Of a DNA stretch of 64,000 bases, positions 11,740 through 38,818 are shown piece after piece. Positions within the stretch are counted from its first letter, which is position 1. Every line of letters begins with the position of its first letter. The DNA is taken from assembly GCA_024180945.1 (NCBI GenBank), contig JAKSGN010000003.1:868001-932000 (forward strand), written 5' to 3'. Position numbers and translations under genes: made by a program. A model generated the notes under the pieces. The model was not told the DNA's origin and ran no database searches. It saw only the letters and a list, made by a program, of their open reading frames with translations. The DNA comes from Macrophomina tecta (taxonomy: Eukaryota; Ascomycota; Dothideomycetes; Botryosphaeriales; Botryosphaeriaceae).

Positions 11740-11898
11740 TGGATCCGCGGGGAATCGAACCCCGGACCACTCCCATTCACGATATCGAACGTGATGTTGA
11801 GTATTGCTAAGGGAGTATTATACTTCAATCTGCGTTAATATTGGATTTCAAGGCGGAATCGGTATTATGTGTTGACTTACCCACTAAACCACAGACCC
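11740..11898 (-). tRNA. tRNA-Ala (anticodon AGC), interrupted twice
   Basis: The mature tRNA (72 nt) assembles from 11898-11881, 11822-11805 and 11775-11740. The acceptor GGGTCTG pairs with CGGATCC and contains the G3-U70 wobble, the alanine identity signal, with A73 as discriminator. The D-stem is GTT/AAT around loop TAGTGGTAT. The anticodon stem CTCCC/GGGAG encloses TT-AGC-A. The T-arm is CGGGG-TTCGATT-CCCCG. A 29-nt intron at 11804-11776 sits after base 37, the normal fungal position. A second insertion of 58 nt (11880-11823) splits the D-loop. Without removing both, no cloverleaf forms. The A box (TGGTTTAGTGG) ends exactly where the second insertion begins and stays intact. Sequence and pairing are seen directly; splicing is inferred. 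Confidence 0.82.
11823..11880 (-). other. Spliceosomal-like GT-AG insertion in the tRNA-Ala D-loop
   Basis: This 58-nt insertion begins GTAAGT, has a TATTAAC branch-like motif at 11840-11834, and ends GAAG. It removes cleanly between G19 and T20 to give a standard nine-base D-loop. An earlier AG (CGCAG) lies only about 5 nt past the branch-like A, too close for usual spliceosomal use. No run of four T occurs inside, so Pol III could read through it. Confidence 0.6.
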
Positions 11899-14184
11899 AT
11901 TGTGTTTCTGATGTCTCACAGTCGACTGGTTTCATAATTATAGAACAGCTCTGCTCTCTTAGTAGCGTGTGCCCAGCCTCAGGCGGCCGGCACATTTCAG
12001 GCTGTCCAACTATAGTGTCCTATGCAACCCAAAGCTACGAGCGCGCTTGATATATGCAGTGGACACTGTGTATTAAACACAATCCCGAGTCGTTCCAAGA
12101 GTTGTCGAATCTTTCTTTCCGGCAACTGCCACTTCGGCGAAACCCCACGATGTCAGCCCAAAACAAATTTGGAACCACAGTGGTAGCAATAAGAATTGCG
12201 GCACATTCTAAGGAACTAAGCGGAAATTATTTGTACCACCTTAAGTTTCCCACTGCGGCCAGACGGGAAGCCGGAATGTCTCACACCTTCTCGACTGCGG
12301 TGGGTCCGAACGCCGGCCTCTACATGTAGCGGTACACCCAACGACCCGTCCAGCCGCCGGTAGCCATCCCGAGCATCCGAACCTGCAGCGACTTCTTGCT
12401 TTCCTCTGATCTGCCTGCTATCCGACGTTTCGCGCATGATTTGTGCAACTCGAAGCAAGGCCGTCCCTCCAGTGCCTCTGTACTCCATATTTCTCTACTT
12501 CCCTCAACCACGCTATTGAATAGGTAAGTTCGCGTCCAGGAACGATGCCGCAGCCGCAAGAATAAGCATTGCGGCACCACGTGGCCGGGCCGGGTTCCTG
12601 ATCAGATCCCCCGCCCTACAACGTCCTAGTGACGTAGCAGCAGCTGCGGAACCACCGGCAGAACAGACAGCCTTGAATTATCTCGGCTGGCAGCTCAAAG
12701 CACACACTACTGATGATTAGCGCTCGCGCGAAGGGGGCCAGGCGGCTATCCGGCACGCGAAAGAATGTTGTATCTCAAAAAGCTTATAACACCCCCTCAC
12801 CCTTGTCGGCTTTGAGCTTTCAGTGTTGTCGATGACGTCGAGACGGCATTTGAGAACGTGCAAGCATAGGGCTTTGATCCGTTCAAAACGTCAGCTTCAT
12901 TAGTGAGGCTCTCGCCTCCGGCAATGTCGGGCTGTCGAGTTGTGATGCAATGTTGCATGATGCGACTTGTGCCGTCTTAATCATACTGACGACGGCGAGG
13001 ATGGCCAGAGTCTTCTATCAAAGCTGGGTCTGGATCAGTCCGTTGCCTTGTTCGCGGTCTGCGGCCAGAGAGTTGCAAGATGTATTTTTGCCATGGTTTT
13101 CCACGCATTCGGAAGACAATCCCTGTGCAGGTACTTGATATTGGTATAAACCTATACCCAAAAAAGATAAAGAGCCCGATTTCATGGCTAAGATGTCACC
13201 GGCATCGGGACTATACCGTCCTCAACTTCATCTTACATCTCCAAGACTGAGGCAAGAGGCCAAACACCCGAATGTTCTGCAATGCTCATCTTCTCGACTA
13301 CCTCGATACTCCATTGCCGCTGCTTACTATCGTCTTCAGACCACCTCAGCACCACCAATTTGAAAGTCCCAGCCGTTCTCCGCCACATTTACACCCTCGC
13401 AGGAAGCTGAGCCAGTTTTAGCATGAATGTGCGCAAGGCGTACAATAGAAACGCAAGCGGCCTTGACGCCACAGCCAAGAGTATGAATATCATTCAGTGT
13501 ATCATTCAGTGTACCGAGGAACCGAGGAATACGAATATCTCACTGCACGCGTGCGCAAGATGCTCGAAACCAGCCGGGGAGACCTATGTGCGTGGTAGAA
13601 ACTGGCTGGATGATGCGCATACCCCAGCAGATCTTTATTTGCCTTCCAAACAAATATCACCGCAGACTCGTTGCCTGATGCAAATATCAAGCTCGTGGTG
13701 GGCGCGAGGTTGTCGGAGCTTAAGAAAATGGATGGGAGATGGCTCCACCGCGGACAAAGAGCTGAAGCAGAGGTTAGAGCTGCTTTCCTGGCCAGCAGAT
13801 AATGCAGCGGCTCACTCAACCTTGAGGGTGCCATAAGTAAGCCTGTGGCATGCCAAACTATGGGTTGTCGTGGTGACAGTCGCCTTTATTGGATTGCGGG
13901 GAAAGTCTCTATGGACGTCCCATCGACTGTGCCGGGCACAGGCGGGATGGCCAGCATGTCACAAGATCGTAAGTTGTTCAGCTGGCCATTTGTGTAAAAT
14001 AATGTTGAATTGGAGTAAGTAACGGTCGCAGTAATTGACGAGCCTGATCTGTTGCAGACGTTGCCCTAAAACATAGAGCGTAAACTTCTATTGCAGCAAT
14101 TCTCCTCTTGCAAGGATACCTTAGCACAGTTATGGCTGGACACGGTTGGATTCTCTGAGCGATTGTTTACCTCATGGTTTACTC
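11899..14184. other. Intergenic, no supported gene
   Basis: Only short open frames. A minus-strand frame at 13502-13834 and an overlapping plus-strand frame at 13423-13836 reach 110-137 residues, but neither has a domain I recognise. I see no further tRNA-like fold here. Confidence 0.45.
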
Positions 14185-17007
14185 TCAACCCTTGCTCTTC
14201 CACCTCACCCTCCCGTCCTCCCTCCTCCAAACCCTCCTCATCCACCTCCTCTTTTTCCTGACCTCCGTCCCCGCAAATTGTCCAGTCCCCTGCACCGACC
14301 CTATGGCCTGCCTATCCGCTCCATACCTCAGCATCTCCTCCCAAACCTCCATCCCATACTCCTCCGCCCCACCGCCGACCACAACCTCCTCCCACGGCGA
14401 CCTTTCCAATCCCGCCCTAAAGTTTGGATCCGCCCCCCAATCCAACAGCAATCCAATCAACCTCGCCCTATCATCCTCCATATCAGCACCCCTCTCTCCC
14501 TCATCATCATCATCATCATCACTATCCTCCTCCTCCCCGCCCATCCCCACCGCCGACGACGCAACCGCAAAATGCAAAAGCGGCGCCGCCCCTCCCTCAA
14601 CCCTCTGCTCCTGAACCCGCAGCCACGTCCTTCCAAGCCGGTACTCGACGTACGGCAGCAACCGCAGCCGCACCGCCAGCGCCATGAACGGCCCGTCCGG
14701 ATGGTCAGCGGCGCCGCGGCACCAGCACCCGCCGTCATCGCAAGGCCCGGAGCGCTGGACGAGCGTTGCCGTGGTGTGCGCGAGGGCGTCCCAGAGCGGC
14801 GTCGTGAGAGTTGGTTCTTTGGGGTCTTCATGGGCGGCGAGGGCGGAGATGTGGCGAATGGCGCGGAGGAGGGGGCTGTTGGGCGTATCATCGTGGATGG
14901 GATTGTAGGAGTGTTTTTCGTCGTTGAGCGAAGGGCCAGGAGCGGTTTTGAGGCGCAAGAGGGAGGCGTGGGCGAGAGAGAGGTGCGGGTTGAAAGGGCT
15001 GTCGCGGTCTGTGAGGTGGGATGATGTGAGGCGCGTCCAGATGTCCGGGCGGTAGAGAAAGTCGCGGACGGCTCGGTGGAGATGGCCGGCTGTGGCGGTA
15101 GCACGGATCGAGGTGGTGCTGTCCGGTGGAGAGACTACGACGAGGCCTTTGCAGTGGCTGTGTAGGCGCCGGCGGATCTGCTCGCATCGCGCGGCTTCTT
15201 GGTTTTGGGAAAGCGGCTCGATGGGATGCTCGTAAGGTAGAGCTGGGTCGTCTTCATCGGCGAAGGAGAGACACAGCAGGTCTATTGGCGCCCTCGCGGC
15301 CCGGATGACCTGGAAGATCTGGGAGGTATGCTCGAGGCGCGCCGGGTCGATGCTGCTCAGTATGTATTCAAACAGAGATTCCAGACCGCTGGGCACACTT
15401 CCAAGTCGTCTCAGAAGATCCGAGAGCCTCTCTCCATCTTGAAGGCCCCGGTTAAGCATGCCAACCACGATACGGGCCCACAAGAAAACACCTGCGGCCT
15501 TATCTGCAGTTTTTTCCACAAGTTCCTGTGCCTGCTTTGGGGACATACTCCGGAGGTAGGTGAAGTCAGGACTCTCCTCCAAGCCGGCCTGCACAAACTG
15601 AACAATATCCGGGCGATTCAGGTCTTCCAGCCGCAGACCAGGTTCAGACCCATAAGCGCCCTTGAAATCGAACCGGGGCTGGCTGCTTAAACATATTTTA
15701 ATGTTGGAATTAAGCGCCAGTTTTTGAAAGAAGACCACTGTTGTTTTGGGGTGCTCTCCGAGCTCGTCAAGACCGTCGACGAAGAAGATGAAGCGTGTGT
15801 CGAGATTATACCTGATCATACGTTCCAGTGCCTGCTGTAGATCGAGCTCTGTCATGTATGAATCAGGCCGTATGCTTATCAGAGTGAACATCTCCCACTC
15901 AATGGGAAAGGTCCTTGCCACGAGCCTGTGATCTTGTGCCAGGGACTTGTAAAGCAGTGTCCGAAGAAGGCGTTTCTTTGATACCTGCTTGGACATCTCG
16001 CGGCTTCCGACAAAACATTGTGCGCGGACCAGTCTTTCGTTTCTAGCCCAGCCGCGGCTCAACTGGACAGTGTGTTCGTGGCCACAGATGTACTTCATGA
16101 GCGTTGATTTGCCTGCGCCTGCCTTGCCAGTTATCCAGTAGACTTGCTTTTCTGCTTCCTTTCCCAGCCAGTCACTAAAGCCAGACCACCGACTTTGTTC
16201 GGGTAGGGGTTCCTGAAAAATCCAGCGAAGTGTGTTCGCGCAGGGCTGGTGGATTTCATCCTCTTGGCTATCGATTCCGTGAAACCATAGAGTCAAAAGG
16301 ATACTCGCCTCGAACTCCTCGCTCGAGGCAAGCTCAAAGGCATCTACGGCGGATCTGGGATTTCTTCTGATGGCCTCTTGGATATCTGAGTAATACACGG
16401 CGTTCTTCTCCAGGCAGTCCAAGAACCTTTGGCCGTTTTTGCTGTTCTGGACGGTTACACTCTGCAGAAGCGGGACTTGGCACCCCAGCCGGGCCTGTAA
16501 CCCCCTTTTCTACTTGTGAGCGAGGACTCGATGCGATCAAAAAGGGTCAGAGTCTTACCTCAACGCCGAAATAGTGAGAACGACGAGCCGGGACCGCCAA
16601 TCTCCAAGACTGTTCTGTAACCGCCCAATCTCCTCAGGACTCCAGATTGTCTCGAGTGCTTCTCTAAAGCTCTCGAACTTTTCTTTCCTACACATACGAC
16701 GCCCCCTCAACTTTCGCACGGCGTGGACGAGTGCTTCCGCCGCGGCGCCACACTCGTCGCACACGATCCGAATCTGCTTCTCGGTCTCGGAGGCAAGTTG
16801 GCCAGGCCCGCTCCCGCTACGGGCCTCATCAATTTCCCGGCCGTAGTTCAGTAGCTCCTCGGCGATTGTCAAGGTTTCTTCTGACTCTCGCTGCAATTCT
16901 CCGCTTTTCGATCTTCGGATCCTCGAATCTGTGGACAGCAGCGCGGCGGAAAAGTCGGCGAACTGCACTGCCGCCGCTGCCATTCCCAGCGGCGTGGATG
17001 ATTCCAT
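14185..17007 (-). CDS. NACHT (NLR-like) STAND protein
   Basis: Two exons on the minus strand, 17007-16559 and 16459-14185, give 907 aa. The N-terminal ~150 residues are a helical domain of the type found before fungal NACHT domains (RLQNSLGDWRSRLVVLTISA). The NACHT NTPase follows with Walker A GKAGAGKST, Walker B FIFFVDGLDEL and a downstream KICLSSQPRFDF sensor region. Further C-terminal motifs include AAGVFLWARIVVGMLNRGLQ and, near the end, an acidic run (EEEDSDDDDDDEGE) and one ankyrin-like unit (LIGLLLDWGADPNFRAG). Fungal NLRs act in non-self recognition and regulated cell death. The start is the first in-frame ATG (MESSTPLG). The junction is odd: the first CAG acceptor would give an immediate stop, and frame is kept only by the AG two bases later. 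Either a tandem acceptor is used or the gene is damaged. Confidence 0.8.
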
Positions 17008-17781
17008 GTTGTTGCTTGAAAGGTATTTTGACCCCGGGAAAGGGGATGGAGAGGACTGCTTGATGGTTCTGGTTGTGGGAGCTGCCCGCAGGGGGGTGCG
17101 CGCGCTTCTTACGCGGCAGGTCCTCCGTGCAGCTGACGTGGTGGGCACGATTGCGCGCGAGTGGCTGAGTACTTCTATTCCGTGCTTTTGCAGCTTGAAA
17201 TCGAACTCTACATCCAATGAAGATGCGCAGGGATTGCTGTTTGTCGGAAGCGGTGGCGGAGTGGGGTCCAAGGGAGCGGCTCGGACGTGGCATTGCTCCA
17301 CCGCCACACTGGGATCCCACCGCCCACGCTTCGGGTAACATACGCGCGCACGCTGTCAGCCCAAACCTACTGGCAGCTTATTGGAGTATACCAGGATGGA
17401 TTGTATTTTGGTTAACTGACTAGCTCACATACATAAGAAACATCGCCCAGATGTATCATATATTTTTGATATAAAATAATCTAGCAAATACTCCCTTTCG
17501 CAGTTGTACATAGCATAGACCGATTCCGAGTTCGCGACGATCATGTCTTTCAGGCTATATAGCCTATTGGCATGCCTTTTTCCCCCCCTTATTTTCTTTT
17601 GGCCTTTACTACGGTGAGTTAAGGGAAATGGCTTGTGGAAAGCCGTATGAAGCTGAAAAAAACATTTTCATCAGTGTGAAATAAGACCTGGCAGCATTTT
17701 TCCGGCGTCATACCACACACGATCTAGTACTTATCATCGTCCGCGGCTTACGGGCGAAAAAACAGAACAAGCCCTCCAGTT
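17008..17781. other. Intergenic, NLR promoter side
   Basis: Holds the 5' region of the NACHT gene and the 3' end of the acyltransferase gene, both on the minus strand. Open frames continue upstream of the NACHT ATG but lack an ATG start. Nothing else is supported. Confidence 0.5.
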
Positions 17782-19286
17782 TCATTGGCATCTCACCTCA
17801 GCCCATTTAGCCAGCTCCTCATCCTGCAGCAGCCTTTCCATACAGCTCTTCTCCAACCCAAGATAGACTTCCATTCCTTCCTCGGGATCATCCTTCGGCC
17901 GCTGAGGAAGGAAGAAGATGTACCCGTCAAATACCGGAGTTGCCCACCTCAATGCCTGCAGCTGCCCAAATCCAAAGTCCCACGTCCGGTAAGCCGAAAC
18001 CACGCGCCAGTTCGTCACCACCGCATCGATTCCCTTGATGATGTCCAAATTAAATTGGATGCCAGTCCGATGTGGAAAAGACGCCACGTAGTCCATAGTA
18101 CTCTTGATGATGTCCCACGAGCGCCACTTATTCACGGCCGCCCGCACGAGGACCGCATGCTCTGGCAGCGAACCCGGCGCGAGAAGGCGGTCCAAGCTCG
18201 TCTCGACGCAGGAGAAAGACACCGTATTACCCGGATAGGTGTCGGGCACGGGCGGCTTGACGTAGTCGCGGACGTTGAGCGAGTGCTCGAGTACGACGGG
18301 GTGGCACATGTCCGCAGCGAGTCCGAGGAAGTCCAGGCGCGATCGCGCCACGCACCGCCACATCAGTGCTGCGACTGCGTCGCAAGTTGATATCCATTGA
18401 TCGGGCTTACCGGTGGAGGCTGCTGCCTTCAGAGCCGCAAGGCTGCTTGTCCGGAAGTGGAAGATGGCTTGGCCCATGTCTCCTGGCTCGAGGTCTACTG
18501 AAGGGGTCTCGTCAGCGTACTTGAGGGAGCGTAGTTTCGCCTCTACCTCCGGGATGCGGTCCCTAGGAAGTGGCGTGGTCGAGTTTAGCCTGGAGATATC
18601 CAGGCAACTGGGATCGAATTGAGAAGGCAGAGTGCCTGTAGTGATGGCCCTGGTGTTGGCAGCCCATCTGCATTCTTAGTGAGTGAACATAAAAAAATAA
18701 TTTTTTTTTTTTTTTGGTAAATCAGCTGATCATACCTGCTCATTACAGCATCCAGTCCCTTTGCATCAACGCAAATGTGATGTACAACTGTGCCGATGAT
18801 GAGGCCGCCGCTGATGAAATTGAGCTGTACCATTGTGACCGGAACCCCCTTCTCGGGCGTTGGCACCGAACATGGGGTAAAACCTGGAGGCAAGAGCCGC
18901 TCATTCAGCTCTGACGCTGGGAAATTACGCTGCTCGAGCTCGGAATAAGACGGAAAGTCCGTATGCTCCAGGTAATTGATTTCAACGGGAAAGTTGGCTT
19001 GGTCCGTGGAGCGCCGAACAAAGAGCTTGCCTTTTGAATCTGTCTCAAGAAGACCAGCAAGGGAACGATATTCAGCCATGGTAATCTGCAGGCCCTGGCA
19101 CACATTTGCAATGACGAACTCGCGATCGGTGTCTTGGTCGAGCCTATAGGTTGAAGTGATTGGCACGCCCATCTTGGGCATCACGCAGTCCAGATCGCTG
19201 ACGGGAAACACCTCTTCTCCAAGCTCTTTCTCCAGGTCAACCACCTCGATCTTCCTCGTTTCCTTCCGTGGTTGACTGTGAGGCAT
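17782..19286 (-). CDS. BAHD-type acyltransferase (transferase family)
   Basis: Two exons on the minus strand, 19286-18736 and 18667-17782, give 478 aa, a normal length for the family. The catalytic HHxxxD motif is present as VVHHICVDAKG near residue 168, and the structural DFGWG motif appears as DFGFG near residue 413. The intron (18735-18668) starts GTATG, carries a run of 15 A in the transcript and joins S-R-W at a conserved spot. These enzymes move acyl groups from CoA to hydroxyls or amines; trichothecene 3-O-acetyltransferase is a fungal example. Substrate cannot be read from sequence. No polyketide synthase, NRPS or terpene cyclase adjoins it, so a metabolite cluster is not evident. The start is the first ATG before the conserved EVVDLEKELGEEVFPVSDLD region; an upstream in-frame GTG was rejected. 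Confidence 0.88.
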
Positions 19287-20950
19287 CTTGGATTTCTTTG
19301 TTGCTGGACTTCGAGGGCTACGATGAAGAGTTGGTTTGTCAATTTCGAGCGGATTCCATTGCCGGAATTGCCCTTGCAATAAATACACAGGCACAGTCTC
19401 TCTATGTGCTGTGCCTCATCACCCCTGGCGCTCAGAATCCCACGGCCCCGAGTGACACGTCTCGGCCTTATCAAGGTGGATTCAGAGGCCATATAAGGAG
19501 GGGGTCCGTCCCGATGCTTTGGGTAACGACAGTGCCGCAGTGGGTCCCACCAATGGGATCAAGTAATTCTTGTCTGTGCGGTCGGAGTCACGACCTTCTT
19601 TCTCGCAAATTACTCCGCCCCATACTACATACGAAGGCTGCCAGAGCAAGACTGCGGACAGTGAGCGCTTATACCTTCCGAGTTTTGATTCGACCCTAGT
19701 CACGTCAGCTCCCTTTCAGGAAGCATGATTCTCATTGAAGTTTAGATCGGAGAGTTTTAAAGTGCAGCAGGCTGGTGATGACTCCTTGTCACAATGTTCA
19801 GACCTCATGGCGCCAAGCGAGCCGAGCGCCCCATCTCACAGTCAGGATACTTGTGGAGCTGACAGCAAGGTGGCGGGAAAGCCCGCAGGGTATAGAGCTC
19901 AAGGAGACATCCGTGTTGTTACTTGAAGAGCATGCCTTGGGAGAAATCACAATCGCTCGGGAACGGCGGGAGTCAACGCCCAGTTCATGATAATGCCATG
20001 GTGTTGAGCTCAGGAAGAGATGATAAAGGAATCAGTCGGCCCGATCCGCGGCGGATAGAAGCGCCATTGGAGCGTACATTGCCGAGGTCGGCTCGAGAAA
20101 TTCGGCGCAGTGGAGCAAAAAGGTAGCTATGAAAGGCAGCTCATTCCTTCCCTTTCCGCTGTTGTTTGCGGAACTCGACGCGGGTATCTGGAATTAATTG
20201 GACTCATATATCCAGGGCCCTGCCTCAAAGTCCCACAATAGCATAAACGTACATGGGGCGGTGGAGGAAGAAACCACGTATGCGAGTAACGTTCGTTTTT
20301 GAAACATTGCGCTCGTAAAGTTTGCCGATTAGCCATAGATGGTTTTGCCTTGGCTGCTACAACTGCACTGGACGAGACTGTGTTCCTCACGCTGCGTCCA
20401 ATAGACACTGCTGTTTCATTTAATATGGCTCTTCAGTATGCTCTTTGGCTTCTTCAACACACTTCTGTGCTTCACGAGCCCTATGCGCGAAATGCTCCAG
20501 CACGAGTATTATGCTGTTGATTTTTCTTTTCACGGGCAACTTGGATGGGAAATTGCCCATCACCGCCTCATCTCAAAACGCATCAGCAAGACCGAAGCGA
20601 TTGCTACCGAGGTTTACAACCAGTGGCAGGCTAAATACAAATCGACCTAGCCTGACTTCCAACATAAGTCACGTCGTTCGTCCATTATACCAAACTGGGA
20701 ACACCACTCAGTACGGCGGTAGAGTAGCAGCGGAAGCTGTTGTTCAAGGTTTGTTTTGATCAGGGCCTGAAGTTCATGGCGGGGGCCATGTACCCCCAAA
20801 GTGACCGGCTCTGGTGTTGGATCTGGAGGGTAGAGGCTAAGCTAGTAAGTACAACGCAAATCTTTCGGAAGCAAGGGTTGATCGCATGGTGCGCAGGGAC
20901 CAGAGCCGGCCCACAAGCAGGCCAAAAATGTGTCAGAGTAAAACAAAAAA
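19287..20950. other. Intergenic, no supported gene
   Basis: Begins with the promoter side of the acyltransferase gene. Small open frames occur, the least noise-like being plus 20438-20650 (70 residues, FNTLLCFTSPMREMLQHEYY). It has no domain I know and is not called a gene. A run of A at 20945-20950 is the Pol III terminator of the 5S gene. Confidence 0.45.
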
Positions 20951-21069
20951 ACGTACAACAGCCGGGATTCCCCAATGGTCACCCACTTGAGTACTAATCG
21001 GCCGGTTCGCAGCTTGAGTACGGCTGAGCGGACGGGAAGCCCTATATTCTGCGACCTATGGTCGTATGT
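20951..21069 (-). rRNA. 5S ribosomal RNA
   Basis: A complete 119-nt fungal 5S sequence on the minus strand. It begins ACATACGACCATAGG, contains GGGCTTCCCGTCCGCTCAGC and GTGGGTGACCA, and ends GGCTGTTGTACGT directly before T6 (20950-20945), the Pol III stop. Helix I pairs apart from one A-C mismatch. Another helix shows matched changes, TCGCAG with CTGCGA, arguing that the copy is functional. A single dispersed 5S gene is the usual arrangement in Pezizomycotina. Unlike the two tRNA genes in this window, it contains no insertion. Confidence 0.93.
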
Positions 21070-23233
21070 GAGGACTATTGCACCAAAAAATTCTCATATA
21101 CCCAAAATTATCACAATTCCACGCTCGGGCGTGAGCTTGCACTTGCGAACAAGCACACCCGTTTGGATATGACTTTTTCCCAAAACCGTTTCACACATTT
21201 GCCAAAGTGCTAGGGCATAGATGGAAATGCGGCGAAACGGCGAAGTGATGTTCTTCCTGAATGTCCACTGGGCTCGTCAAAGCATCTGCTTGTGGTATTT
21301 GTGAAAGCCAAGCTAGATCACTGAATGCCATCCGTATTGAATTGATGGCCTTGCCATTACACATACAGCCTAAGCTCTAGGACAGACTACACCCCGAGGC
21401 CGTCGCCGCCGTCGTCACAATGGCCGAAGCACGGCCTAGTGTGGGCGTGCCGCAACCAGCGGTAAATTCCGCAGACACAGTAGTAGAGTAAGTAGTCGAC
21501 AAAATCCGCAGCTGAATATGGAAATACAAGCATCCTGGATGCCGTTATCTCAAAGATTTAACAAAGTGGCGGCATAGAGAAGCAAGAGACAGTGCTCTAG
21601 TTGCAAATTCTATCTTCCATGTCCAATGCTTCGTCAATTACGTGTTTCGCCGGTTGCTTGCGGCGTGCGGGGGTCGTGATTCGTTGGTCGTTCTAGCTTG
21701 TCTATTGAAGGATTACGAAGTACTGTCGCGTAAATCAAGCAGTTGACACAGGTGCGGAAACTACAGACTATTTTTAGCACTGTACTCTGTTGACGATGGC
21801 TGACTGGAGCGAGTGGTAGTGATGTTCCTATGAAAATATGTCAACTGTAGAAGGGGACCACTTCGGGCCGGCTTGGTGCGCCTTGGTGCTGGAATGCGTC
21901 GTCTGGGGGGCTACTGAGGATCAACTGGTGATTACTGAGAATTTCGGTTAACCACTGAAGTCAGCGTTTGAGTGGGTGGGCCGATGCGTTTCCTCTCCGC
22001 CGCACTAAGACGCAAGTGTGGATAACTTAGCAGTACATGTACGGATATGGGTAGGTACCAATATTTTCTGTTAGCCTCAAAGCTGACCACTTCCGACGTG
22101 GAATAAGAATTCATATTCCGTGATGTCTCTGAACCGCGCACTTACCTCCCTCCTTTCACCACCTCAGTATGTGAGACAAGCGGCGGCTTCGCATCACGCG
22201 TCGCAACACCAGTACACGTGTCTCACAGTATCTGCAGACAGCACCGTATCCTCCTTCTAATCCGGTACGTGTGTAGAGGCGGCTTGCGGGTGTTGTGAAC
22301 CTCCGAACTCCGGGCTGTTGCGGCGAAGGATGTGTTGCACAATTTGTATCTCGCAGGGCTGACCCGTTAAGGGAAAAACAAGGATAGCGCTACATCAAAC
22401 CCGGAGTACGGAAAAGACGGCAATCTTCCGAACCAGCAGGGAAAAGAGTCCGGGACGTTGGCGCGTCACCCGAGACGACCAGATGCAGTGAAGGGAGGGG
22501 GAATAATCGGAAGCGTCCCCAACACAGCACAGCCTGCTGCGTTCCGCCAATCTGCGCCAGAAAGTATGATAGATAAGCGACCACACTCTGGTCACAAATA
22601 CCAGCAGAAATACGGATTCAGAGCGCTCCTCGGTCTTGGGATGATTGATTTGCGGCGAGGGACGTGGAGACATGGTGGCGATGTTGTCACGCCTAGTGGT
22701 CGCTTACTTGCTTCCCCCCCCCCCATCGCCAAATCTCAGACAGATAGTCCTTGGTCATAGGCAAAATCGTACGATTTTTGATACCGCTGCTGACGTACGC
22801 CGGGTTGAACAGAGCGCTTCAGCGCTTCGCCACAACTCATTCGTTTCCAATCGCCGCGTGATTTCCGCTTGATCCCGATGCTTTCTCCAACATATTTCTC
22901 GGCGTGTAATGGCCAAGGCATCAAGGACCTCAACGTCGCCACTTTACATGATCTTTGAAATTCCCGGTTTTTCATTAGATACCTCACTCGCTATGCGTTG
23001 CTATGGGAGTCCAAATCCTTGCCTTTTGTAAAACGAAGAGAAAAGATGCAAGAGAAAAACCGGCTCTCAGACGGTATCATGCGCACTTACTGAAAAGAAG
23101 GGGGGATAACGGGTTCATTTCCTTGACGTCCAATACTTCCACCACCAAAATTCTTCCCCCTCCTTTCTAGTTTAAACATGACCAAAATACTACAAATCCG
23201 CTGTACGTGCAAAGAAAAACCGAATGGTGCAGA
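21070..23233. other. AT-richer intergenic region, no supported gene
   Basis: Open frames are short and scattered over both strands. A run of 11 C lies at 22714-22724. The right end is the 3' side of the NADPH oxidase gene. I see no RNA gene, terminal inverted repeats or transposase remnant. Confidence 0.45.
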
Positions 23234-28891: not shown

Positions 28892-30923
28892 TTGTGAAAC
28901 CAAGGCCAGTGCGGGCAGGAGTAGAAGCGTTGCTTCGTGGAGAAGGGAACCATGGGAATGCGCTGGCAGCTGCGATAACAACATCCAGCATCCAGCCCAG
29001 TGCCCGTCTCGATGATGATCTGTGGAGTGGTCTCTGTTTTTGCAACCAAAACATCAGGCTCTTTCAACAGACTCAGCAAGCGTACCTTCTTCGCAAAGCA
29101 CTTCAACTTGCTACGCGGTTCCTTTCTTTTGTTTTCACGGGTTCAGCCTTGCCCACTTGACTATTTTTTTTTTTTTTTAATATCATTTACCAAAAAGAAA
29201 GTTTTGTACGTAGGTAGGCGTTCGTTTGGGACCCTATCTCCGGGTTGGCGCAAGGGTTCGGGATGTAGGTGGTAGCACTGATTTGCTTTTTAGCTTTGAT
29301 TTCACGCGGTGGCATGGCCACGTCCGCGTAAAAAAATATATACATGCCAGTTTATTGATATTCCCCATTTATCTTTTGGATCGTCACTTCCAAGAAGCCG
29401 TCGATAGAAGCCTGCAATCAGATATAGCGCGCCCACCCTTCTATCAGACCAGGTAGAGATGTTGATCGGCTCCGCCCTTAGAAATTATGTACTCGGCCAC
29501 TGTTCAACCAGTTGAAGAGTGAGTCCGGCCGAGAGTGCGGTTTGATGTCAGTATGAAAGATCATTCCCGGTGGAATGTCGCGTGGACAGCATACCCTTGT
29601 GATTCACGTGCAGACGATGAACTGGCACCTTCCTTTCCGATGATAAGCGCGTCGGCGGCATCTGCGAGCTGGAGGTGCTGGAGTTCGCCGGGACGGACCG
29701 CGCGATTGGCTCAATATAAAGCAGCGCTTCCTTGACAAAAATGAGGCTCTGGGTGGAGGACGACGTTTCAACGGCACGGCTTCCGTCTTACAAAACGCTC
29801 GAATCATGCAGAAGAAACGCGGTGCAACCTGGCGCGAAGCCAATCTTGCGCGAGCAGCATCCGGGGCTGCTGGTTTTAAGGCTGTATGCTGCGGGAGGCC
29901 TAGATCGCAGGCAGCCAACAGAGCGTGCATAGGTTGAGGGCGGCTCACCACCCCATTCGACGTGGGCCTTCCAACGCATGCATAATTCTGGCTGAGCCGG
30001 TCGCTCGAGAGACGTGACGGCATGAGCAGCATCTCACGTAGACTGGCGAGCCTCGTCATGGACGCTCTCCCACTTCCCCAGATGCGCCGGTCGACGGGTG
30101 GGTGGCACAAAGTGGCGATCATCGCGGTTGGGCTTGCCCCTCATCGGTGCATTCGCGTTCGATCTGCTAGCCGCACGGGGAGGCGCGACTAGGTCGCGCA
30201 AGCTGGCTCTCTACATCGGGCAGCGTGTGCAGAAGACGATTCACACGACAGAGGCAGTGCTGGCGGCAGGGAAGAGGAGACAGGGTCGGACAGAAGCCTC
30301 ACGAGGCACTCTCCACCAAACGTACTGGAGGGCGAGAGGGAGTGGATTCAGCCGGATACCTGGGCCCGGTCCTAGTCATGACGGACATGTCTTCCCGCGC
30401 GACGGCCGATCGCCTCATGTTTGCACCAACGGCCGTGTTCTGCGCGCTCGTCGAGAAGGCCGCAGTGGAGCTTCGTGAATGATTCCAATGCACGTTCTAA
30501 GCCGGTTCTAGGCCCCGGCCGTGCCAGGTGGAGCATTGGGCCGTTCCGGCGGCCAATCATCCGGCAGTGGTGGGCCGTGCCGGGGCAGACGTGTCACGGC
30601 CTCGAGCAGCAGCCGGGGGATTACCGCAATCCCACGCACGCATCATGCTGCGGCAAAGGCGCCTGTGACCTCGATTGGCACAAGTCCAACCTCTCCCCGA
30701 CTTCCGCTGCGCCTTAGTTAAATACACACGGCCCTGGCGGCGGCGATATGCAGCCCACAGGAGAAGCGAGACTCGTCCAGCCTCCTCTCCAATCCCCATC
30801 TCACACACACCGCATCTCTGAGTAATCCGGACGGCCAGATATAAACTCGCAGCGCGAGTAATCCCTCACATTCTCTCTCTTCTCTTCGACTCAAGCCAGT
30901 CATCCACCATTCCGTAGCCCAGC
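28892..30923. other. Intergenic, no supported gene
   Basis: About 2 kb between co-directional genes. A T15 run lies at 29164-29178 in the probable EMG1 3' region. Open frames near 30.1-30.7 kb overlap on both strands and lack domains. The last few hundred bases should hold the promoter of the VOC gene. Confidence 0.45.
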
Positions 30924-33208
30924 ATGCCTGTCAGTCACATCGGGCTCACCGTGAGCCATCTCCCAACCTCGTGTTCCTTCTTCCTCGCCGCCCTTCAACC
31001 GCTCGGCTATCGTTATATCGGCCAGCAGGGGAACCAAGTTGGCTTTGGCATCAACAACGAAGCCGATTTTTTCCTGTGCCAGGAGACTCCTGGGTGCGTC
31101 CCTTCTTGCCATCACCCGGGCGGCCCCATGTTAACCTCCTCTCCAGCATCAAGGCCGGCGCAGCTCACATTGCCTTCTCGGCGCCTGACCGGATAGCCGT
31201 GCGTAATTTTTACACCGCAGCTCTCACCGCCGGCGCACGCCCGCATGGCTCCCCAGCCACCCGAGATTCTGAGAACGGCGTCTTCAATGCTGCTGTTCTG
31301 GACTTTGACGGCAACAGCATCGAAGTCATGCACCGCGAGAACGTCGATCCCATGGATGACTCGCAGTCAGTTGGCGGCTTCAGCAGAGTCCTGACTTGGC
31401 GAAAATCTGTTAATGGCAGCCTGCGCGACGACGAGTCCGTCATCAGTGGCTCCTCGGTGAAAACTGCCGCCAGGACCGTCGTCCCATACCAGCCCCCCAA
31501 GAGCGCCGGGCCCGGCTCCGTCATTGCGCCTTCCCTCAGGGCCGAGTCTGTAGCCCCCAGTCTGCCGCGGACGCAGTCCGCCCCTGTGGTTCCCAGGGCC
31601 TCGAAAGAGGAACTCAACCCAGAGCTCATGGCGGATGCCGGTGCTCGAAAGATCATTGGTACGCTCATTGGCGCCGCAGCCGGTGCTGCCGTTGCCTATG
31701 CCATGGTGAAGAGCGAGCGCGACAGCGCAAAGGAGGAAGCGGCTGCAGTTGCCGCATCACAAGCCGGATCTCAGCGGGCTCAGTCAGTGAAGGAGCCCTC
31801 GCAGAAGGCGCCCAGTGTTGCGCCATCCCAACAACAGTACCAGCAGTCCGAGTACGCCTATACCCCCTCTCAAATACAACAGATGATCCAGTACGAGCGA
31901 GCGCCAACGCAAACGGAATCTGTATACAGCGCACCCCGCGAACGGATGGCCATCGAAGCTGCTCCGGCTCGCAGCACTCACGCCGCCACTCTGGTGTCTG
32001 CGCTGCAGTCCGGAGCCACGACCATCAGGCAGGCCACTCACCGCAATTTCAGCGAGACCGAGTCCATGTATAGCTCCGCCGACAGCCGTGACCGCTACTC
32101 GCGTGCGCTGGAAAACGCGCCGCAGACGGCCAAGAGTTACCTGAACCCGACGTGCGTGTCAGTCGCGCAGACGTCCGTGTCCAAGCGCAACGAGGACGTC
32201 GAGTACGTCCCGGCCTCGAGCGTCGGACCGCGTAGCACTTACTCCCGCAAGAGCAGTGCCCCCAGCGTCATCTCCGAGATGCCTAAGAGCAGCCGCGCTC
32301 CCTCACAAGCCCCATCCAAGTCCGGCTCGAAGGCCCCGTCTCTGATCTCGAGTTTCCACCCCGACGACGACGACCGCAAATCGAACGCTTCGGAACGCCG
32401 CAGCAGCGCCCCCAGCACCCACAGTTCGCGCTCCAAGGCCGACAGGCTCGACGCCGTCGGCGAGGACGCCGAGCGCCGCTCTTCCGCCGGAAGCGTCCGC
32501 TCGCACCACTCCTCCAAGTCGAAGGCCAAGTCGCTGATCTCGTCCTTCGCCCCTGAGGATCGCAACGACTACCCGCCTACCCCGCCGAAGTCGACCGCGC
32601 CGTCCGCTGTCGAACGCCGCAGCTCGGCCAACAGTGTACACTCGACCAAGTCGAAGGCCTCGACCGCGAAGCCGACGCAGGAAGCCGGTGGCTCGAAGGC
32701 GCCGTCTCTGCTCGGCAGCATCCTGGGCCGCAACAAATCGGGCGACACCAGCGACAACGACGGACCCTCGGACCTCGACACCGTCGCACCATCCGACTCC
32801 ATCTCCAATGCCGGCTCCTCGCGCTCCTCCCTCCGCCGCGGCTCGAGTCGGGCGAATGGCGACGACGATGACGCGAAGAGCAGCCACAGCAGGCACAGCA
32901 AGCACTCGAAGCATAGCTCCGCGTCGAAGCACTCGTCCCGGTCCCGCCGCGAGAAGGACGGCGGCGACGATGATGACCGCAAGAGCCACCACTCGTCGCG
33001 CTCGCACAAGAGCAGCTCGAGCCGCCGAAGTGAGCGGAAAGAGGACGACGGCGACGTCGTGCGCCCCTCTAATATCAGCGAGCCCAGCGAGGCCAGCACG
33101 GTCAAGCCATACAAGCCGCGCAAGGACAGCGTTGTCAGCTTGCCGACCAGGAAGCTGGACAAGGAGTCTGAGGGCAGGCAGAGGAGTGTGGTGAGTTTTG
33201 CGGGTTGA
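30924..33208 (+). CDS. VOC (glyoxalase-fold) protein with long Ser/Lys-rich tail
   Basis: Two exons, 30924-31093 and 31147-33208, give 743 aa. The first ~125 residues form one vicinal-oxygen-chelate module: VSHIGLTVSHLPTSCSFFLA, YIGQQGNQVGFGINNEADFF, AGAAHIAFSAPDRIAVRNFY and VLDFDGNSIEVMHRE. The pattern suits a metal-dependent lyase, dioxygenase or isomerase, but no specific reaction can be named. A Gly/Ala-rich hydrophobic segment lies near residues 221-243 (IIGTLIGAAAGAAVAYAMV) and could be a membrane helix. The remaining ~500 residues are disordered, with recurring KAPSLISSF or KSLISSF-type units, SSAPS motifs and acidic clusters (DDDD). The tail is unlike a normal glyoxalase; fusion to a possible scaffold or phospho-regulated tail is inference. 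Confidence 0.82.
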
Positions 33209-34488
33209 TTCGTGTTCATGATGTGATGAATAATGTATACATTTCTGGTCCCTTTTCCATTTTTTCTAGTCACGGCATGGTTCGGTGCGTCCTTCTTTTG
33301 GGTAGGTCAATTTCTTTTGTTTCTTTCTCCTTACTGCTTTTCTTCAAGGGATCTTGAAGGGATGGTGGTTACTTCTCTTTTTGCATTAGGCCGGCAGATG
33401 CTCGAAACATCTCTGGCCGTTCTTCTATTTTTTGCATGAGTGGCGCTTGGGTTTGCTTTTCCTTGTCATTCCCGCAGAACTACAGACATTGGCTTGTAGA
33501 TTGCAACGTAGGCCGTGCCGGATAACTGCTTGCAAGACGCGCGGTCCGCGGGCAGTTTTCTTCGCATCTAAGATACATCTGATTACACAGAGAACTTTCA
33601 AGTACACCAATTACCGACAGATCGGTCCTCCTTTTGCATGATTGAAAATGGGAAAGAGAGCAGGCATCGAATGATGCCACACTTCAACTGTCCACCACTC
33701 ACCAAACGCCCAACCCTGGATCTGCAACAGGCTCATGAACAACAAACACAGGCAACATGCCGATTAGAGTACATGGCCGCCCATCCACCCTCTCTAGTCC
33801 AGCACCGCCCTCAACCGCACATACATCACATCCAGCAATCTCGCATGGCTGCATCATCCGCATAGCCAGGCCATCCATGCCTCAAACCCCAAAGGCAAGG
33901 CTGCCTATCCGGAGCAGACCGATAAACTCCAAAAAAAAAAAAAAAAAAAAAGAGGAAGCCCAGCCCAAACCCAACTGTTCATGACCCGCATTAGCTTCCC
34001 GGCCGGGCCGGAGCGCCGCGCAGCGAGGAATGGACAAGGAACAAGAGGCGGGTGAAAATTGTAAGGCGGGCGAGCGGAGGTACCCGATGCGGCCGGGGTC
34101 CGCCAGAATAGCAACACCACGTATCTCTCCCGATGGAGCTTGGGCGGGAAAAGTGCCTCTCGATGCTTTGGGGAGGGGGCCAACTGGGATAGGACTAGTG
34201 GGGGTGAAGCCGGTGAGGCCTTACCTCGTGTTTTATTTAGAATCTCCATCTTACATACTGCGTTTGCGCTGGTCAGACGCTGTGGCTGCCTGGCCATACG
34301 GCCACATAAGCGCGACCATCGGGCGGCCATGCACACATGCACAGCCGCTTCTACCGGTCCATCCGACCCGACAACTCCACGACCTATTACTCCAACAACT
34401 GTGATTCATGCGCACCTCACACAAAGCAAATGACAACTGGCAGCACACAACCAGCCGGATCACCCCCCCCCCCGCCCGGCAAAAAAAT
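33209..34488. other. Intergenic between convergent genes
   Basis: Holds the 3' ends of the VOC gene and of minus-strand GAA1. A run of 21 A lies at 33931-33951 and a run of 11 C at 34463-34473, just past the GAA1 stop. No gene is supported. Confidence 0.5.
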
Positions 34489-36657
34489 TCAATCAATCCT
34501 CGTGCTCCCAATCCAGCGAGTAAAAAAGGACCCGCTAACCACAACCGCGCCCACAAACCATGCCGGCCACCACACCAACCATAGCACGACCTGCGTCCAC
34601 AAGCCCCACACGTGCCACCCCATGGCGGCCTGCACCAGCACCTGTCTAACCGCGTCGACACCCACCCAGTCGCCCCTCGCCAGCCCTTTACCAACCAATT
34701 CCTGGCTGGCTACTCCCACAACCGTGACGGGGCTGAGGAGGACGAGCAGAGCGTACTGCAGGGCGGCGAGCAGGATGCGGCGATTTCTGGGTGAGGAGGG
34801 AGAGGGGTGGATGGGGCGGACGAAGGTGAGGGGCGCGGCGCAGAGGCCGACGAGGAAGGAGAGGGAGAAGTTGAGGGTGGCGAGTGCGGAGAAGAACATG
34901 CCTAGGAGGAGGAGGGATAGGCATTGGAGGAGGCAGCTTTCTTGCGGGGTCAGGGCCCGGTGCACGCGGGTCAGTAGGAAGGAGGTAGCTGCTGGAGCTG
35001 CGAGGCTGAGGACGGAGACGAGGATGAAGGCCGTGCCAAGATGCTATGGGTCGTGTGAGTATACTGAGTGATAGGATGTCTAGGCTAGCAGGAACTTACG
35101 TCACCGGGAGTGTGATTGAAGATGGTCAGAGGAACAAGTCCCAGGAAGTGGACGCCGCTGACGCACGCGAGAGGCAGAAGGAGGCTGCGCTCGACTGTTG
35201 TCAGGATGATAGATGGGACGACAGCGACCTTGTTGTCCTCCTTGATCACGGTCATGTCGGGCTTCTTTTCATCCTGAGAATCGGTGGATGCAGGCTTCTC
35301 TTCAGGAATGGGAGGACGTCCGCTTTGAACCCAAAGGCCTATAGCTGTTATGGTGAAATTGACAGCAATCAACATTGCGCTGGGCAGATAGGTTCCTATG
35401 CTGACGAAACGATTGGCTTGCATCAGAAGGTAAAAGAAAAAGCTCTGGTGTAGATGCTCGAGGAGGTTGTTCAAGCTGCGGAACAAACTCTCAACTGTCC
35501 TTCCCAGAGTCATCTCATCATGCCACCCATCTCCCACTGTCTGCAACGTCACCGCGTCAACGTGGTAAGGAATAAAGGCGCTGTGGGGGCCAGATGCATG
35601 TCCAAGACCCTGACTTATCATGCCGCGGAGCATAGTCTGGAGTCGTTCCTCGTAGCTGTCCTGGTGGTTCCACATGCGTTGAATTGTGCACCCAATGCCC
35701 ATTTGTCCACTCGCAATTGCCACAGCAGTGTTGAATAGGTCCAGGTTGGGCAGCTGCCCGTTGATGCCGTCATAGAGCACGTGCAGCTTGTCAAAACGAT
35801 GGCCCCAAGGACCTGCCGGATACTCAATGGCGACAGCTCCCTGAAGGGCACCACTCTTAAGGGGGAGGGGCTCAACTTTGGCGGGGTCATGGGTGTTGTG
35901 GTAAGCGTCAACCCAGGCTTGGGATCCTGCGGTGGTATCGCTGGTGATGAGCACTATGATGTCCTTAGACCAGAGCGACCATCCTGTACAACCATTAACT
36001 CAGGTCGCGAGGAAGGTAATATGCGGAGCTGTACTCTTGAAATAACGTGCGAGCGTCAGAGCCAGAGCAACGCCGCTCTGGTTAATTTCGCCCTTGACAG
36101 TTTCCCAAGAGGCAACCAGCACGACGGCCTCAGTCGCATCCGCACGCGGGCCCTGGAGCACTGCATACACGTTCTCTCCGACTATATCCTTCCCAGGGGT
36201 TTTGTAGGCGTATCTTTGGCGCGCCGTCTTCAGGCCGGTCGATTTCAGGAGCTCCTCCAGTTTCTGGCTCCGCCTGTGCAGTAGGGTCAGCCCCGACGCT
36301 CACTTTCACTCGCGGTTGACGGACTCGTGGACATCCTTGTCCATCAAAGCATGGACCTCATGTCTGTATGCGCGGAAGATGTTGTGCTCGCTGCCGCCGA
36401 AGTAGGTATGGACCTGGCCGGGCAACAGGGCGTTCTCGGAGATGTACGTCTGGCGCGAGTAGTCGTTCAATGGTAACAGGAACAGCCAGATGACGCCAAC
36501 GATGATGCACAGAGCGGACAGGTATGGCGGGATCTTAAGGACGCGGGCATCGCGGCGGAGGCCAAGAATGGCGGGAGCTTCGGAGGAGACAGAGGGTCAG
36601 TGGGCGGCGAGCGGGCGCGGGACACAGTGGACGGGGAGCAGTACCGAGCAGAGCCAT
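34489..36657 (-). CDS. GAA1: GPI transamidase component Gaa1
   Basis: Five exons on the minus strand: 36657-36645 (only 13 nt), 36577-36310, 36273-36035, 35983-35100 and 35043-34489, giving 652 aa. The N-terminus is RRDARVLKIPPYLSALCI, with a membrane helix at about residues 23-41. The luminal domain starts RQTYISENALLPGQVHTYFG and contains KDIIVLITSDTTAGSQAWVD. Several C-terminal membrane helices follow. Gaa1 is a subunit of the ER transamidase (with Gpi8, Gpi16, Gpi17, Gab1) that attaches GPI anchors to proteins. Intron 2 is just 36 nt (36309-36274): GTGAAA, branch CTGAC, acceptor ACAG. Without its removal the frame meets TGA at once. It shares a 192-bp promoter with RBD2 on the other strand. 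Confidence 0.92.
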
Positions 36658-36849
36658 TCCGGGAGCGTGCGGAGGTGCTCAGGCTATGGCAGCTTCATGG
36701 GCAGCGGGGCTGGGCCGGTGGTGGGAGTATTCTGGAGCTGCAGCTTGGCCGGCGTGTCGGCGTTTTGGGGCGCGTGTCCCGTCGCGTCGTCGTCCGCTCC
36801 GTCTTCCTCTCGGCGGCGCCCGCGCAGCTGTCCTCGCCCGCCAAACACC
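36658..36849. promoter_or_regulatory. 192-bp bidirectional promoter, GAA1 / RBD2
   Basis: The start codons of GAA1 (minus) and RBD2 (plus) are only 192 bp apart, so both must be driven from this segment. It is GC-rich with no evident TATA box. An open plus-strand frame runs through it in phase with RBD2 exon 1, but it overlaps GAA1 exons antisense. Confidence 0.6.
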
Positions 36850-37862
36850 ATGCCGCTCGCCATCCCCAATCTCAATCCTGCGCGCTTGCGCTCCTATATA
36901 TTCCGCCTGCCGCTGTGCACCCGTGTTATCCTGTTCATCATCGTTGCTCTCTGGGCCGCCTCCATCCTGACCCCAACTCTACGCGAGAAATGCGCCCTGA
37001 TTCCCGACCAGGTCAGCATAACCGCCGGTGAGTCCGCCGATGATCTGTTGCAGATCGGTCCTACGCAATTGCGACCTCTGCTGATTGCACTGCTCCTTGC
37101 AGCCTTCCGCCTGAACACATACCCCGTCACGCACGTTGGCCTCTTCCACACCTTGTTCAACCTGCTCGCCATAACGCCGCTGCTCGAGCGATTCGAAGCC
37201 GAACATGGCACTCTGGTGTCCTTTGCCCTCTTCTCCGGGCGTACGTTTACTGTTGCCAGTCCTACTCCCTCCATCTGCTTACCAGACTAGCCTTCGCGAC
37301 CCTTCCCGGCCTGCTATACATAGCCGTTGAGCGCGGACTTCTGCGAGGAAACACGGCTGTTCAAGGCGCAAGGTACACGACCAGCCTTGCCCATCTTCTT
37401 CACCGCTGACCTCAACAGTGTCTGGGTATTCCTTCTGCTGGCTGCTGAGGCTATGAAGACGCATAAAGCGAATCCATTCTTCAGGTACTCGTCACTCGCA
37501 CATCCCGGTCGTATCCGGCACTGACACCATGAAGCATCGGGCCCTACAAGATTCCAACCTGGGCTACTCCCCTCATCCTCATCCTCATCACGAGCTTTCT
37601 CGTTCCCAATACGAGTCTGATTGGCCACCTTTGCGGCGCTTTGGTAGGATATCTGTGGGGCTTGAACTACATCAAGTTCCTCGCGCCGCCTGAGAAGATC
37701 CTCCGCTGGATTGAGACCAAGCTGAATTTGCTTGTGAGACTACCACACTACGTTTCCGTGGACCGCTCAACCTTTGGTCGTTATGGCGTCCTGCCATCCT
37801 CCACTCCCATGGCTACCTTGCCGTCGGGTATGGCCGCTTCCTCTCAAAGGCTGGGACCGTAA
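36850..37862 (+). CDS. RBD2: Rhomboid intramembrane protease Rbd2
   Basis: Five exons, 36850-37027, 37103-37240, 37291-37372, 37419-37484 and 37535-37862, give 263 aa. The rhomboid core is TYPVTHVGLFHTLFNLLAIT then LLERFEAEHGTLVSFALFSG, with the catalytic serine in GASVWVF (S133) and catalytic histidine in IGHLCG (H186). The C-terminal LNLLVRLPHYVSVDRSTFGR and closing QRLGP are typical of Rbd2. This Golgi-type serine protease cuts transmembrane substrates; in Aspergillus and fission yeast it is needed for SREBP cleavage and hypoxic adaptation. Intron 1 (75 nt) is a multiple of three and stop-free; splicing nevertheless gives the expected join SITAAFRLNTYP. The introns are short (46-75 nt). 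Confidence 0.93.
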
Positions 37863-38671
37863 TTGTGTAGGTTGTTCTCGGATTGTCAATACAAGGCGTT
37901 GGATTCCTTGCACAATAATTGCATGCCCTTGTCGGTTTCGGCGCGAAAATGGGAATGGCGTCTTAAGGCAAAAGATGGATAAGTATGAAGATGCGCGAAA
38001 ACAAATATCTGCACACTGTCAACGAATGAGATTTGATGGCCATGCCGCATGGCCGACGCTCGATCTGAGGGAGATACAAAATACTGCGGTTGCTGTTGTG
38101 GAGAAATACTTCTTGATTGTATCCAATGAAAAAGTAACCGGCGCACATATATATTGCTTGGCCGAAGCTGTTCATGACTTTCGAACAAACGTGAAGCATT
38201 AAAGCACGCACACTTTGGTATCTGTTCAGGCGCTGAAGTGAGATTTGTCTTCTGCACTGCTCCCATCGCATGTACAGAGACATACAAGCATCCGGAAGCT
38301 CCCGATTGCGGGTCTCGTTTTGTGCTGGACCAGCCGCACAAACACTGGTACCGCGGCCGGCTTGAACCCTCTGGTATTCCTGGGACTGTAGCCGCATCGG
38401 CCGCATCCTCACGTCTCCTTGGATGTGCAGCAGTACTCTGTTCGAGGTGGTGATGTCAGGTCATCGCTTGGGACTGGAGCTTGCGAACGGCGCTCCGGAG
38501 GCTTAACAGTGGGTCGGCCCTTGCACTCTAAGCGATAATTTACTCTCCAAGCTGACTGCAATATACTCTATTACCAGCCCACACAAGTCCTAGGCCTTGT
38601 GCGCCAGGAAGACTGCAGTAGCAAATTCTTACTATATCTATTTAATAATCCTCCACTTTTACTTCAACAGC
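37863..38671. other. Intergenic, RBD2 3' region to tRNA-Ser
   Basis: No coding-like frame and no repeat seen. Sequence just before the tRNA is AT-rich (around 38630-38660). Confidence 0.5.
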
Positions 38672-38818
38672 GGCATAGTGCCAGAGTGGTTAATGGGTCA
38701 GACTTGAATGCTGAGCATTTAGTCATCTGATGGCTTCGGCCTCGCAAGGTAAATACACATTCGCACCATTTCGGAAGTCTTTCCTAATAGGTCTTTAGTT
38801 CGAATCTTGTCTATGTCG
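38672..38818 (+). tRNA. tRNA-Ser (anticodon UGA), interrupted twice
   Basis: The mature class II tRNA assembles from 38672-38708, 38725-38748 and 38799-38818. Acceptor GGCATAG pairs with CTATGTC, discriminator G73. D-stem CCA/TGG encloses GAGTGGTTAA. Anticodon stem TCAGA/TCTGA holds CT-TGA-A. The long variable arm GGC-TTCG-GCC marks it as serine type. T-stem GCAAG pairs with CTTGT around TTCGAAT. A 16-nt intron (38709-38724) lies at the normal site after A37. A second insertion (38749-38798) separates the 5' T-stem strand from the T-loop and must be removed for the T-arm to form. Because the insertion ends in AG, the B box still reads GTTCGAATC, so Pol III could recruit normally. Pairing is seen directly; removal is inferred. 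Confidence 0.85.
38749..38798 (+). other. Spliceosomal-like GT-AG insertion in the tRNA-Ser T-arm
   Basis: This 50-nt insertion begins GTAAAT, contains CTAAT at 38784-38788 and ends TTTAG, 10 nt past the branch-like A. Removal joins GCAAG to TTCGAAT and restores a five-pair T-stem with a standard seven-base loop. The boundary can slide by one G without changing the product. It has no run of four T, so it should not stop Pol III. Confidence 0.62.

Follow-up and report, generated by a model that had tools for sequence, protein, structure and literature searches.

The stretch considered here, called the window throughout, comprises 64,000 nucleotides (nt) of the genome of the fungus Macrophomina tecta (C3:868001-932000; the genome amounts to 54.1 Mb in 37 contigs). 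It holds two transfer RNA (tRNA) genes, tRNA-Ala(AGC) and tRNA-Ser(TGA), each of which is interrupted twice: by a canonical intron, a term used here for the anticodon-loop tRNA intron at position 37|38, and by an extra insert which begins with GT, ends with AG and is probably a spliceosomal intron of the kind found in messenger RNA (mRNA) genes. The parts of the two genes, in window coordinates, are the following.

11740..11898, minus strand: tRNA-Ala(AGC) gene with two introns (manual reading, stem pairing, identical exons in five other copies)
11881..11898, minus strand: Ala exon 1, GGGTCTGTGGTTTAGTGG, from the 5' strand of the acceptor stem to G19 (identical in six paralogs)
11881-11891, minus strand: Ala A box, within exon 1
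11823..11880, minus strand: Ala extra GT-AG intron, 58 nt, in the D loop at 19|20 (absent from three paralogs)
11805..11822, minus strand: Ala exon 2, from the 3' part of the D arm to nt 37, with anticodon AGC
11776..11804, minus strand: Ala canonical intron at 37|38, 29 nt, not GT-AG and without a branch motif (its ends can shift by about a base)
11740..11775, minus strand: Ala exon 3, with the B box at 11751-11761
38672..38818, plus strand: tRNA-Ser(TGA) gene with two introns (Rfam, manual reading, stem pairing)
38709..38724, plus strand: Ser canonical intron at 37|38, 16 nt (ARAGORN after removal of the extra intron, anticodon TGA)
38749..38798, plus strand: Ser extra GT-AG intron, 50 nt, in the T arm between G53 and T54
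38797..38807, plus strand: Ser B box, AGTTCGAATCT, which opens with the AG that ends the intron (the same 11 bases occur in the intronless Ser(CGA) gene L127)

Manual reading and comparison with paralogs confirm this arrangement of a canonical intron plus a GT-AG intron of 50-58 nt in both genes, which had been put forward in a preliminary description of the window. Exon 1 of the Ala gene terminates in GTGG; the extra intron follows (GTAAGT...ATATTAAC...GAAG, with TTAAC as the branch motif), and the gene resumes with TATAATACTCCCTTAGCA. A search of the genome with the Ala exons retrieves six Ala(AGC) genes whose exons are identical throughout. Three of the six carry an intron at the identical D-loop site while the D arm is unbroken in the other three, and the inner sequences of the three extra introns are mostly unrelated. 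The inserts of the window are not chance occurrences, given the same-site Ala introns, the unbroken paralogs and the identity of the exons. A second T-arm-like hairpin (for example, TCTGG-TTCAAAT-CCAGA) is found 5-8 nt past the gene end in five of the six Ala(AGC) genes (L091, L092, L094, L098 and the window gene, at 11705-11739), with 5/5 pairs in three of them and 4/5 in two. When a hairpin of 5/5 pairs was looked for behind all genes examined, only Ala genes had it. It is perhaps an extra B box or the relic of a tandem copy.

The extra intron of the Ser gene reads GTAAAT...TTCCTAAT...TTTAG and has CTAAT as its branch motif. A Ser query matched three genes, namely the window gene, which is the single TGA copy, and two Ser(CGA) genes, L127 and L107. 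The T arm of L127 (GCAAG-TTCGAAT-CTTGT) matches the one that the window gene has once the insert is taken out. The intron had been described as ending directly before the B box. It does restore the 11-base sequence, since its AG replaces A52 and G53 and AGTTCGAATCT therefore reads the same with or without the intron, but the site, 53|54, lies within nt 52-62 and not before the box. Because of the extra introns, annotation tools lose such genes: ARAGORN reports no tRNA in the 64-kb window, Rfam scores the Ser gene at 28.3 bits, below the 29-bit cut-off, and its only response to the Ala gene is a weak transfer-messenger RNA (tmRNA) match at 11737-11898.

Elsewhere in the genome the same structure recurs, bringing the total to 12 genes in six families: three Ala(AGC), one Ser(TGA), four initiator methionine (iMet), two Trp, one Leu(CAG) and one Arg(TCT). 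An iMet query matched three genes from nt 23 onward only, and all three are interrupted at 24|25, within the D stem, by introns that start with GTAAGT, GTAAGA or GTAAGC, contain CTAAC or CTGAC, and end in TAG or CAG. A fourth iMet gene (C35) was detected with a pattern that joins a TGGC-type A box to GTAAG; its acceptor pairs are altered on both sides, so that they still number 7/7. Every iMet gene found (4/4) is interrupted, and none occurs among the 46 intact nuclear genes of the 60 Rfam matches. The TGGC-type pattern also yielded all the Trp genes found, a pair with anticodon CCA separated by 0.9 kb and each with its insert at 24|25, as well as one gene for Leu(CAG), whose insert sits at 25|26. 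A second Leu(CAG) gene, L050b, is without an extra intron (its anticodon is assigned by likeness to the interrupted Leu gene, the script reading being one base off). In the Arg(TCT) gene L064 (C2:1075116), the insert GTATGT...CTACTAAC...TAG splits the A box itself, at 11|12; an AT-rich, TATA-like stretch lies about 30-50 nt upstream of this gene. Canonical introns are also present in the interrupted Trp and Leu genes, and absent from the iMet and Arg(TCT) genes. For iMet, Trp, Arg(TCT) and Ser(TGA), the searches, which are incomplete, brought up interrupted genes only.

The 12 extra introns are uniform in their anatomy. All are 50-58 nt long, start with GT and end with AG, and all contain YTRAY, whose branch A stands at 10-12 nt from the intron end (CTRAY in 11/12). 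Eleven have G at position 5 and eleven end in YAG. The branch motif at 10-12 nt, a range chosen after the introns were seen, has a probability of 0.029-0.043 per intron in composition shuffles, with a product of about 10^-17.5. The sites are 11|12, 19|20, 24|25, 25|26 and 53|54, never 37/38. By comparison, the canonical introns of the genome show GT-AG in 0/57, whatever the register, and the branch motif at that distance in 6/57; the 57 include some nearly identical copies as well as nine introns whose boundaries, in Ser and Leu genes, are approximate, and the script left four Ser(AGA) genes unsettled in this tally. The roughness of anticodon registers and intron boundaries in Leu and some Ser genes is due to the long variable arm. 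Canonical introns can themselves be long, about 70 nt in a His tRNA gene (L054, C3:2000436-2000576) and 45-66 nt in several Gly and Asp genes. The mRNA introns of the window resemble the extra introns. Those of an NADPH oxidase gene (best match in Macrophomina phaseolina, with 99.4 and 96.8% amino-acid identity for exons 2 and 3; the other leading named matches are mostly from Botryosphaeriaceae) measure 53 and 50 nt, with 10 nt from branch A to the end in both, and a weakly supported candidate intron in GAA1 measures 51 nt with the branch A 11 nt from its end.

When the insert is removed, a direct count of stem pairs gives 7/7 in the acceptor stem and 5/5 in the T stem of all 12 genes, with 3-4 of 4 pairs in the D stem and 4-5 of 5 in the anticodon stem. 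ARAGORN, applied to the insert-free sequences, also recognizes a tRNA in 12/12, with the expected anticodon in eight. It places the anticodon in the wrong register in the window Ala gene, the Ala gene of C32, one Trp gene and the Leu gene, and for this reason the restored cloverleaf is based on the direct count. The A and B boxes of the interrupted genes are readable, with the exception of the split A box of Arg, and T runs follow several of the genes, in a tally that covers part of the set. The extra introns had been proposed to occupy promoter-neutral sites. This does not apply as a rule: in Ala, iMet, Trp and Leu they lie outside the boxes (the 24|25 and 25|26 sites of the last three being 5-6 nt past the A box), but in Arg the intron is inside the A box and in Ser, formally, inside the B box. 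As stated in the preliminary description, TTTT is absent from both window genes. It is absent from all 12 extra introns as well, but base composition suffices to account for this (product P 0.134 in shuffles), and the suggestion that T4 runs are selected against is not upheld.

The extra introns are those of a minority of the genes examined. The pattern of the window, two tRNA genes out of two, does not extend to tRNA genes at large, as 70 of the 82 nuclear tRNA genes examined have no extra intron. These 82 consist of 46 intact genes from 47 nuclear Rfam tRNA matches (the 47th being Arg), 17 genes added through B-box matches, seven through DNA queries and the 12 genes with an extra intron. Two of the 82 (L038 and L039) are identical including the flank, C34 possibly being an assembly duplicate. 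Thirteen Rfam matches on C17, inferred to be mitochondrial, were left out of the counts, as were B-box matches without an acceptor partner and two truncated copies, Gly(GCC) L070 (C2:3305807) and Asp(GTC) L105 (C5:2397003). In both copies the 5' portion of the tRNA, as far as roughly TAGTGG, is missing, and the upstream sequence inspected contains no acceptor partner.

Within the sample, the B-box matches carry the least bias. The pattern, GGTTCGANTCC, has 122 matches in the genome versus 110 in the control, and 100 of them were listed. The first 30 by contig order, each inspected, include 15 tRNA genes and one truncated copy, and three of the 15 (window Ala, the Ala gene of C2, and Arg) bear an extra intron. 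Inspection of 26 among the remaining 70 gave 10 tRNA genes, all free of extra introns, plus a truncated copy; the others are 12 known uninterrupted genes, five matches on C17 and 27 left uninspected. Overall, 3/37 tRNA genes of the B-box sample have an extra intron. The Rfam scan, which scored 63 of 1323 candidates, favours uninterrupted genes, while the TGGC-type pattern favours D-arm introns starting with GTAAG. The latter matches 97 sites, against 67 in the control; 13 of the 97 were inspected and 84 judged from the listed letters alone. Seven of the 13 are tRNA genes (the four iMet, two Trp and one Leu), and six (C6:4363506, C7:743208, C7:2622136, C7:4705771, C31:759578 and C37:2029676) proved on inspection to hold no tRNA. 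About 32 of the 97 are an identical 20-mer, TGGCCAAACCGGGTAGTAAG, spread over many contigs and probably a dispersed repeat.

A pattern made of the D loop and a 5' splice site after G19 has 16 matches (26 in the control), three of which are the Ala genes; four were left uninspected and nine were inspected and rejected. Seven of these nine lie in tandem-repeat-like DNA on C10, C18 and C21, and the other two, C6:4363505 and C31:1340207, contain no tRNA. The arrays in question (L121, L122, L123 and L124) have units of roughly 60-70 nt with the A-box-like sequence GGTGTAG...GGTAAGTA, and no tRNA genes were found in them. The two matches of a TAGC-type pattern (nine in the control) were both inspected and hold no tRNA, and a TGGT-type pattern, for which match counts alone were taken, gave 41 versus 105 in the control. 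A Trp query had no match in the genome, though Trp genes exist, as the TGGC-type pattern shows. A scan for interrupted iMet genes gave one match in viral contigs, not a tRNA, and no match in bacterial and archaeal sequences.

Taken together, these observations suggest, with a probability of roughly 0.9, that the extra inserts in these nuclear tRNA genes are spliceosomal introns of the ordinary U2 type. The earlier proposal that mRNA-type introns occur in genes of RNA polymerase III (Pol III) thus gains from two genes to 12. Since GT-AG is present in 12/12 extra introns versus 0/57 canonical ones, the maturation of these tRNAs is likely to depend on the spliceosome. Pol III would make the pre-tRNA. 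U1 would recognise 5' splice sites that resemble GUAAGU, and the CUAAY branch site would be bound by U2, after which the spliceosome would join the exons at the AG 10-12 nt downstream and restore the D or T arm. The tRNA splicing endonuclease measures from the folded mature domain; consequently, in Ala, Ser, Trp and Leu the spliceosome should precede it, and only afterwards would the refolded pre-tRNA be cut at 37/38. For iMet and Arg(TCT), the spliceosome alone would be needed.

The introns themselves may be old. In pairs of paralogs interrupted at the same site, the intron cores have z scores of -1.7 to 2.2 against shuffles, with 2/10 pairs above 2, and no similarity among the 12 introns, or between them and the window or the examined loci, was found at E <= 0.05. 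Because paralogous introns are mostly no more alike than shuffles and cross matches are absent, old and freely drifting introns held by their splice signals fit the data better than fresh copies of one element would.

That the endonuclease might instead remove all the inserts, as ectopic tRNA introns with a bulge-helix-bulge, has been proposed for a comparable case in the red alga Cyanidioschyzon merolae, where the D arm and 53|54 are similar sites of interruption (PMC9602550, in the portion available). Several of the interrupted genes, too, hold canonical introns of the endonuclease type. However, in a simplified test at one offset, the central helix of four base pairs, between nt 2-5 of the intron and nt 2-5 of the exon, is complete in 0/12, only 1-3 of the four pairs being formed, and inserts at the same site share GTNNGN, YTRAY and AG, none of which the endonuclease requires to our knowledge. 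Insert length and branch spacing are moreover those of the mRNA introns of the window. We regard removal by the endonuclease as improbable. Slightly less credit still is given to the idea that pseudogene decay or recent insertion explains the interrupted genes, with uninterrupted ones supplying the working tRNAs. Half of the Ala(AGC) genes are indeed uninterrupted, and truncated tRNA copies (L070, L105) exist in the genome, but decay is hard to reconcile with exons that form stems in 12/12, with splice signals kept by paralogs whose intron interiors have diverged, or with the absence of intact counterparts for iMet, Trp, Arg(TCT) and Ser(TGA) from the searches made, incomplete as these were. 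Least probable by far is that the GT-AG look results from chance or from the choice of junction register. The junction does slide by a base in some genes. Yet with sliding registers allowed no canonical intron acquires GT-AG, the position of the branch motif in 12/12 goes far beyond shuffles, and 6/12 genes (two Ala, three iMet and Arg) came from exon or B-box searches, with neither a demand for a 5' splice site nor a prior pick.

Some observations weigh against spliceosomal introns as the explanation. In the Ala gene of the window, the extra intron shows GAAG in place of a terminal YAG, and TTAAC in place of CTRAY; a CAG lies 7 nt before its end, and its use would leave seven extra bases in the tRNA. 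Both window genes were chosen beforehand for their GT-AG look, and 4/12 genes (both Trp, Leu and the fourth iMet) came from a pattern that requires GTAAG, although in these four the branch site, the AG and the cloverleaf are independent of the selection. The mRNA comparison is small, and in GAA1 a 65-nt competitor, with its branch A at 16 nt, outscored the 51-nt intron; removal of the longer one would delete coding-like sequence. The sample of 82 genes is biased and incomplete, with no genes for Asn, Ile(AAT), Phe, Tyr, elongator Met and several minor anticodons. An uninterrupted but divergent iMet gene could have escaped, as the iMet query itself missed the fourth gene.

If the extra inserts are spliceosomal introns, this fungus should be unable to initiate translation without the spliceosome, since all four iMet genes found are interrupted. 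We lean, with less assurance, towards a broader proposal in which the spliceosome would be an obligatory tRNA processor here and probably in related fungi, acting on the transcripts of every iMet and Trp gene and gating the supply of start tRNA and translation, and in which the introns would have been gained repeatedly, at several sites and in several isotypes, and then kept. One precursor (Ala, Ser, Trp or Leu) would in that case need both machines in order. Such genes would provide substrates for asking how the spliceosome treats uncapped Pol III transcripts with a first exon of 11-25 nt plus leader, and they raise the questions of how TFIIIC handles an interrupted A box and of a possible feedback from the capacity for mRNA splicing to translation.

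Canonical eukaryotic tRNA introns lie at 37/38 and are processed by the tRNA splicing endonuclease and a Trl1-type ligase. They coexist with the extra introns in the window Ala, Ser, Trp and Leu genes, but differ from them in position and in the absence of GT-AG (0/57). Ectopic introns of C. merolae and archaea are alike in that they occupy D and T arms besides 37/38 (PMC3978253, PMC9602550, as far as the available portions go). In C. merolae tRNA-Ile(UAU) has introns at 12/13, 37/38 and 53/54, those of the D and T arms being supposed to leave before the anticodon intron (PMC9602550, same portion). They differ from the extra introns in being treated as bulge-helix-bulge substrates of the endonuclease (PMC3978253), with GT-AG ends or a branch site going unmentioned in the text available. 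Likewise, in the accessible parts of PMC4090602 and PMC3978253 the spliceosome is not named as the remover of tRNA introns.

Closer parallels are found among other small RNAs of fungi. Introns of U3 small nucleolar RNA genes have GT-AG ends, an RCTRAY branch and a mean length of 92 nt (PMC5832005, in part). Like the extra introns, they combine GT-AG with a branch motif, are present in some paralogs and absent from others, and have sites clustered in one RNA arm; unlike them, they do not reside in tRNA genes, and their mean of 92 nt compares with 50-58 nt here (same source and portion). Introns of mRNA type are also known in fungal U6 small nuclear RNA genes, through citations in the available part of PMC5832005. 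Here, too, a spliceosomal intron resides in a small Pol III gene, but U6 is itself part of the spliceosome and no tRNA is involved. In the present genome U6 gives a single match, which is uninterrupted, as is a 5S ribosomal RNA gene in the window (20950-21069, minus strand, Rfam 74.1 bits). In full-text searches of open-licence literature, apart from subscription papers and preprints, none of the entries listed describes a spliceosomal intron within a nuclear tRNA gene, as far as titles and abstract openings show; one of the listings covers 20 of 111 entries. The splicing of tRNA is usually described as independent of the spliceosome. The extra introns thus seem to be of a familiar kind, and what looks new is the class of gene that hosts them.

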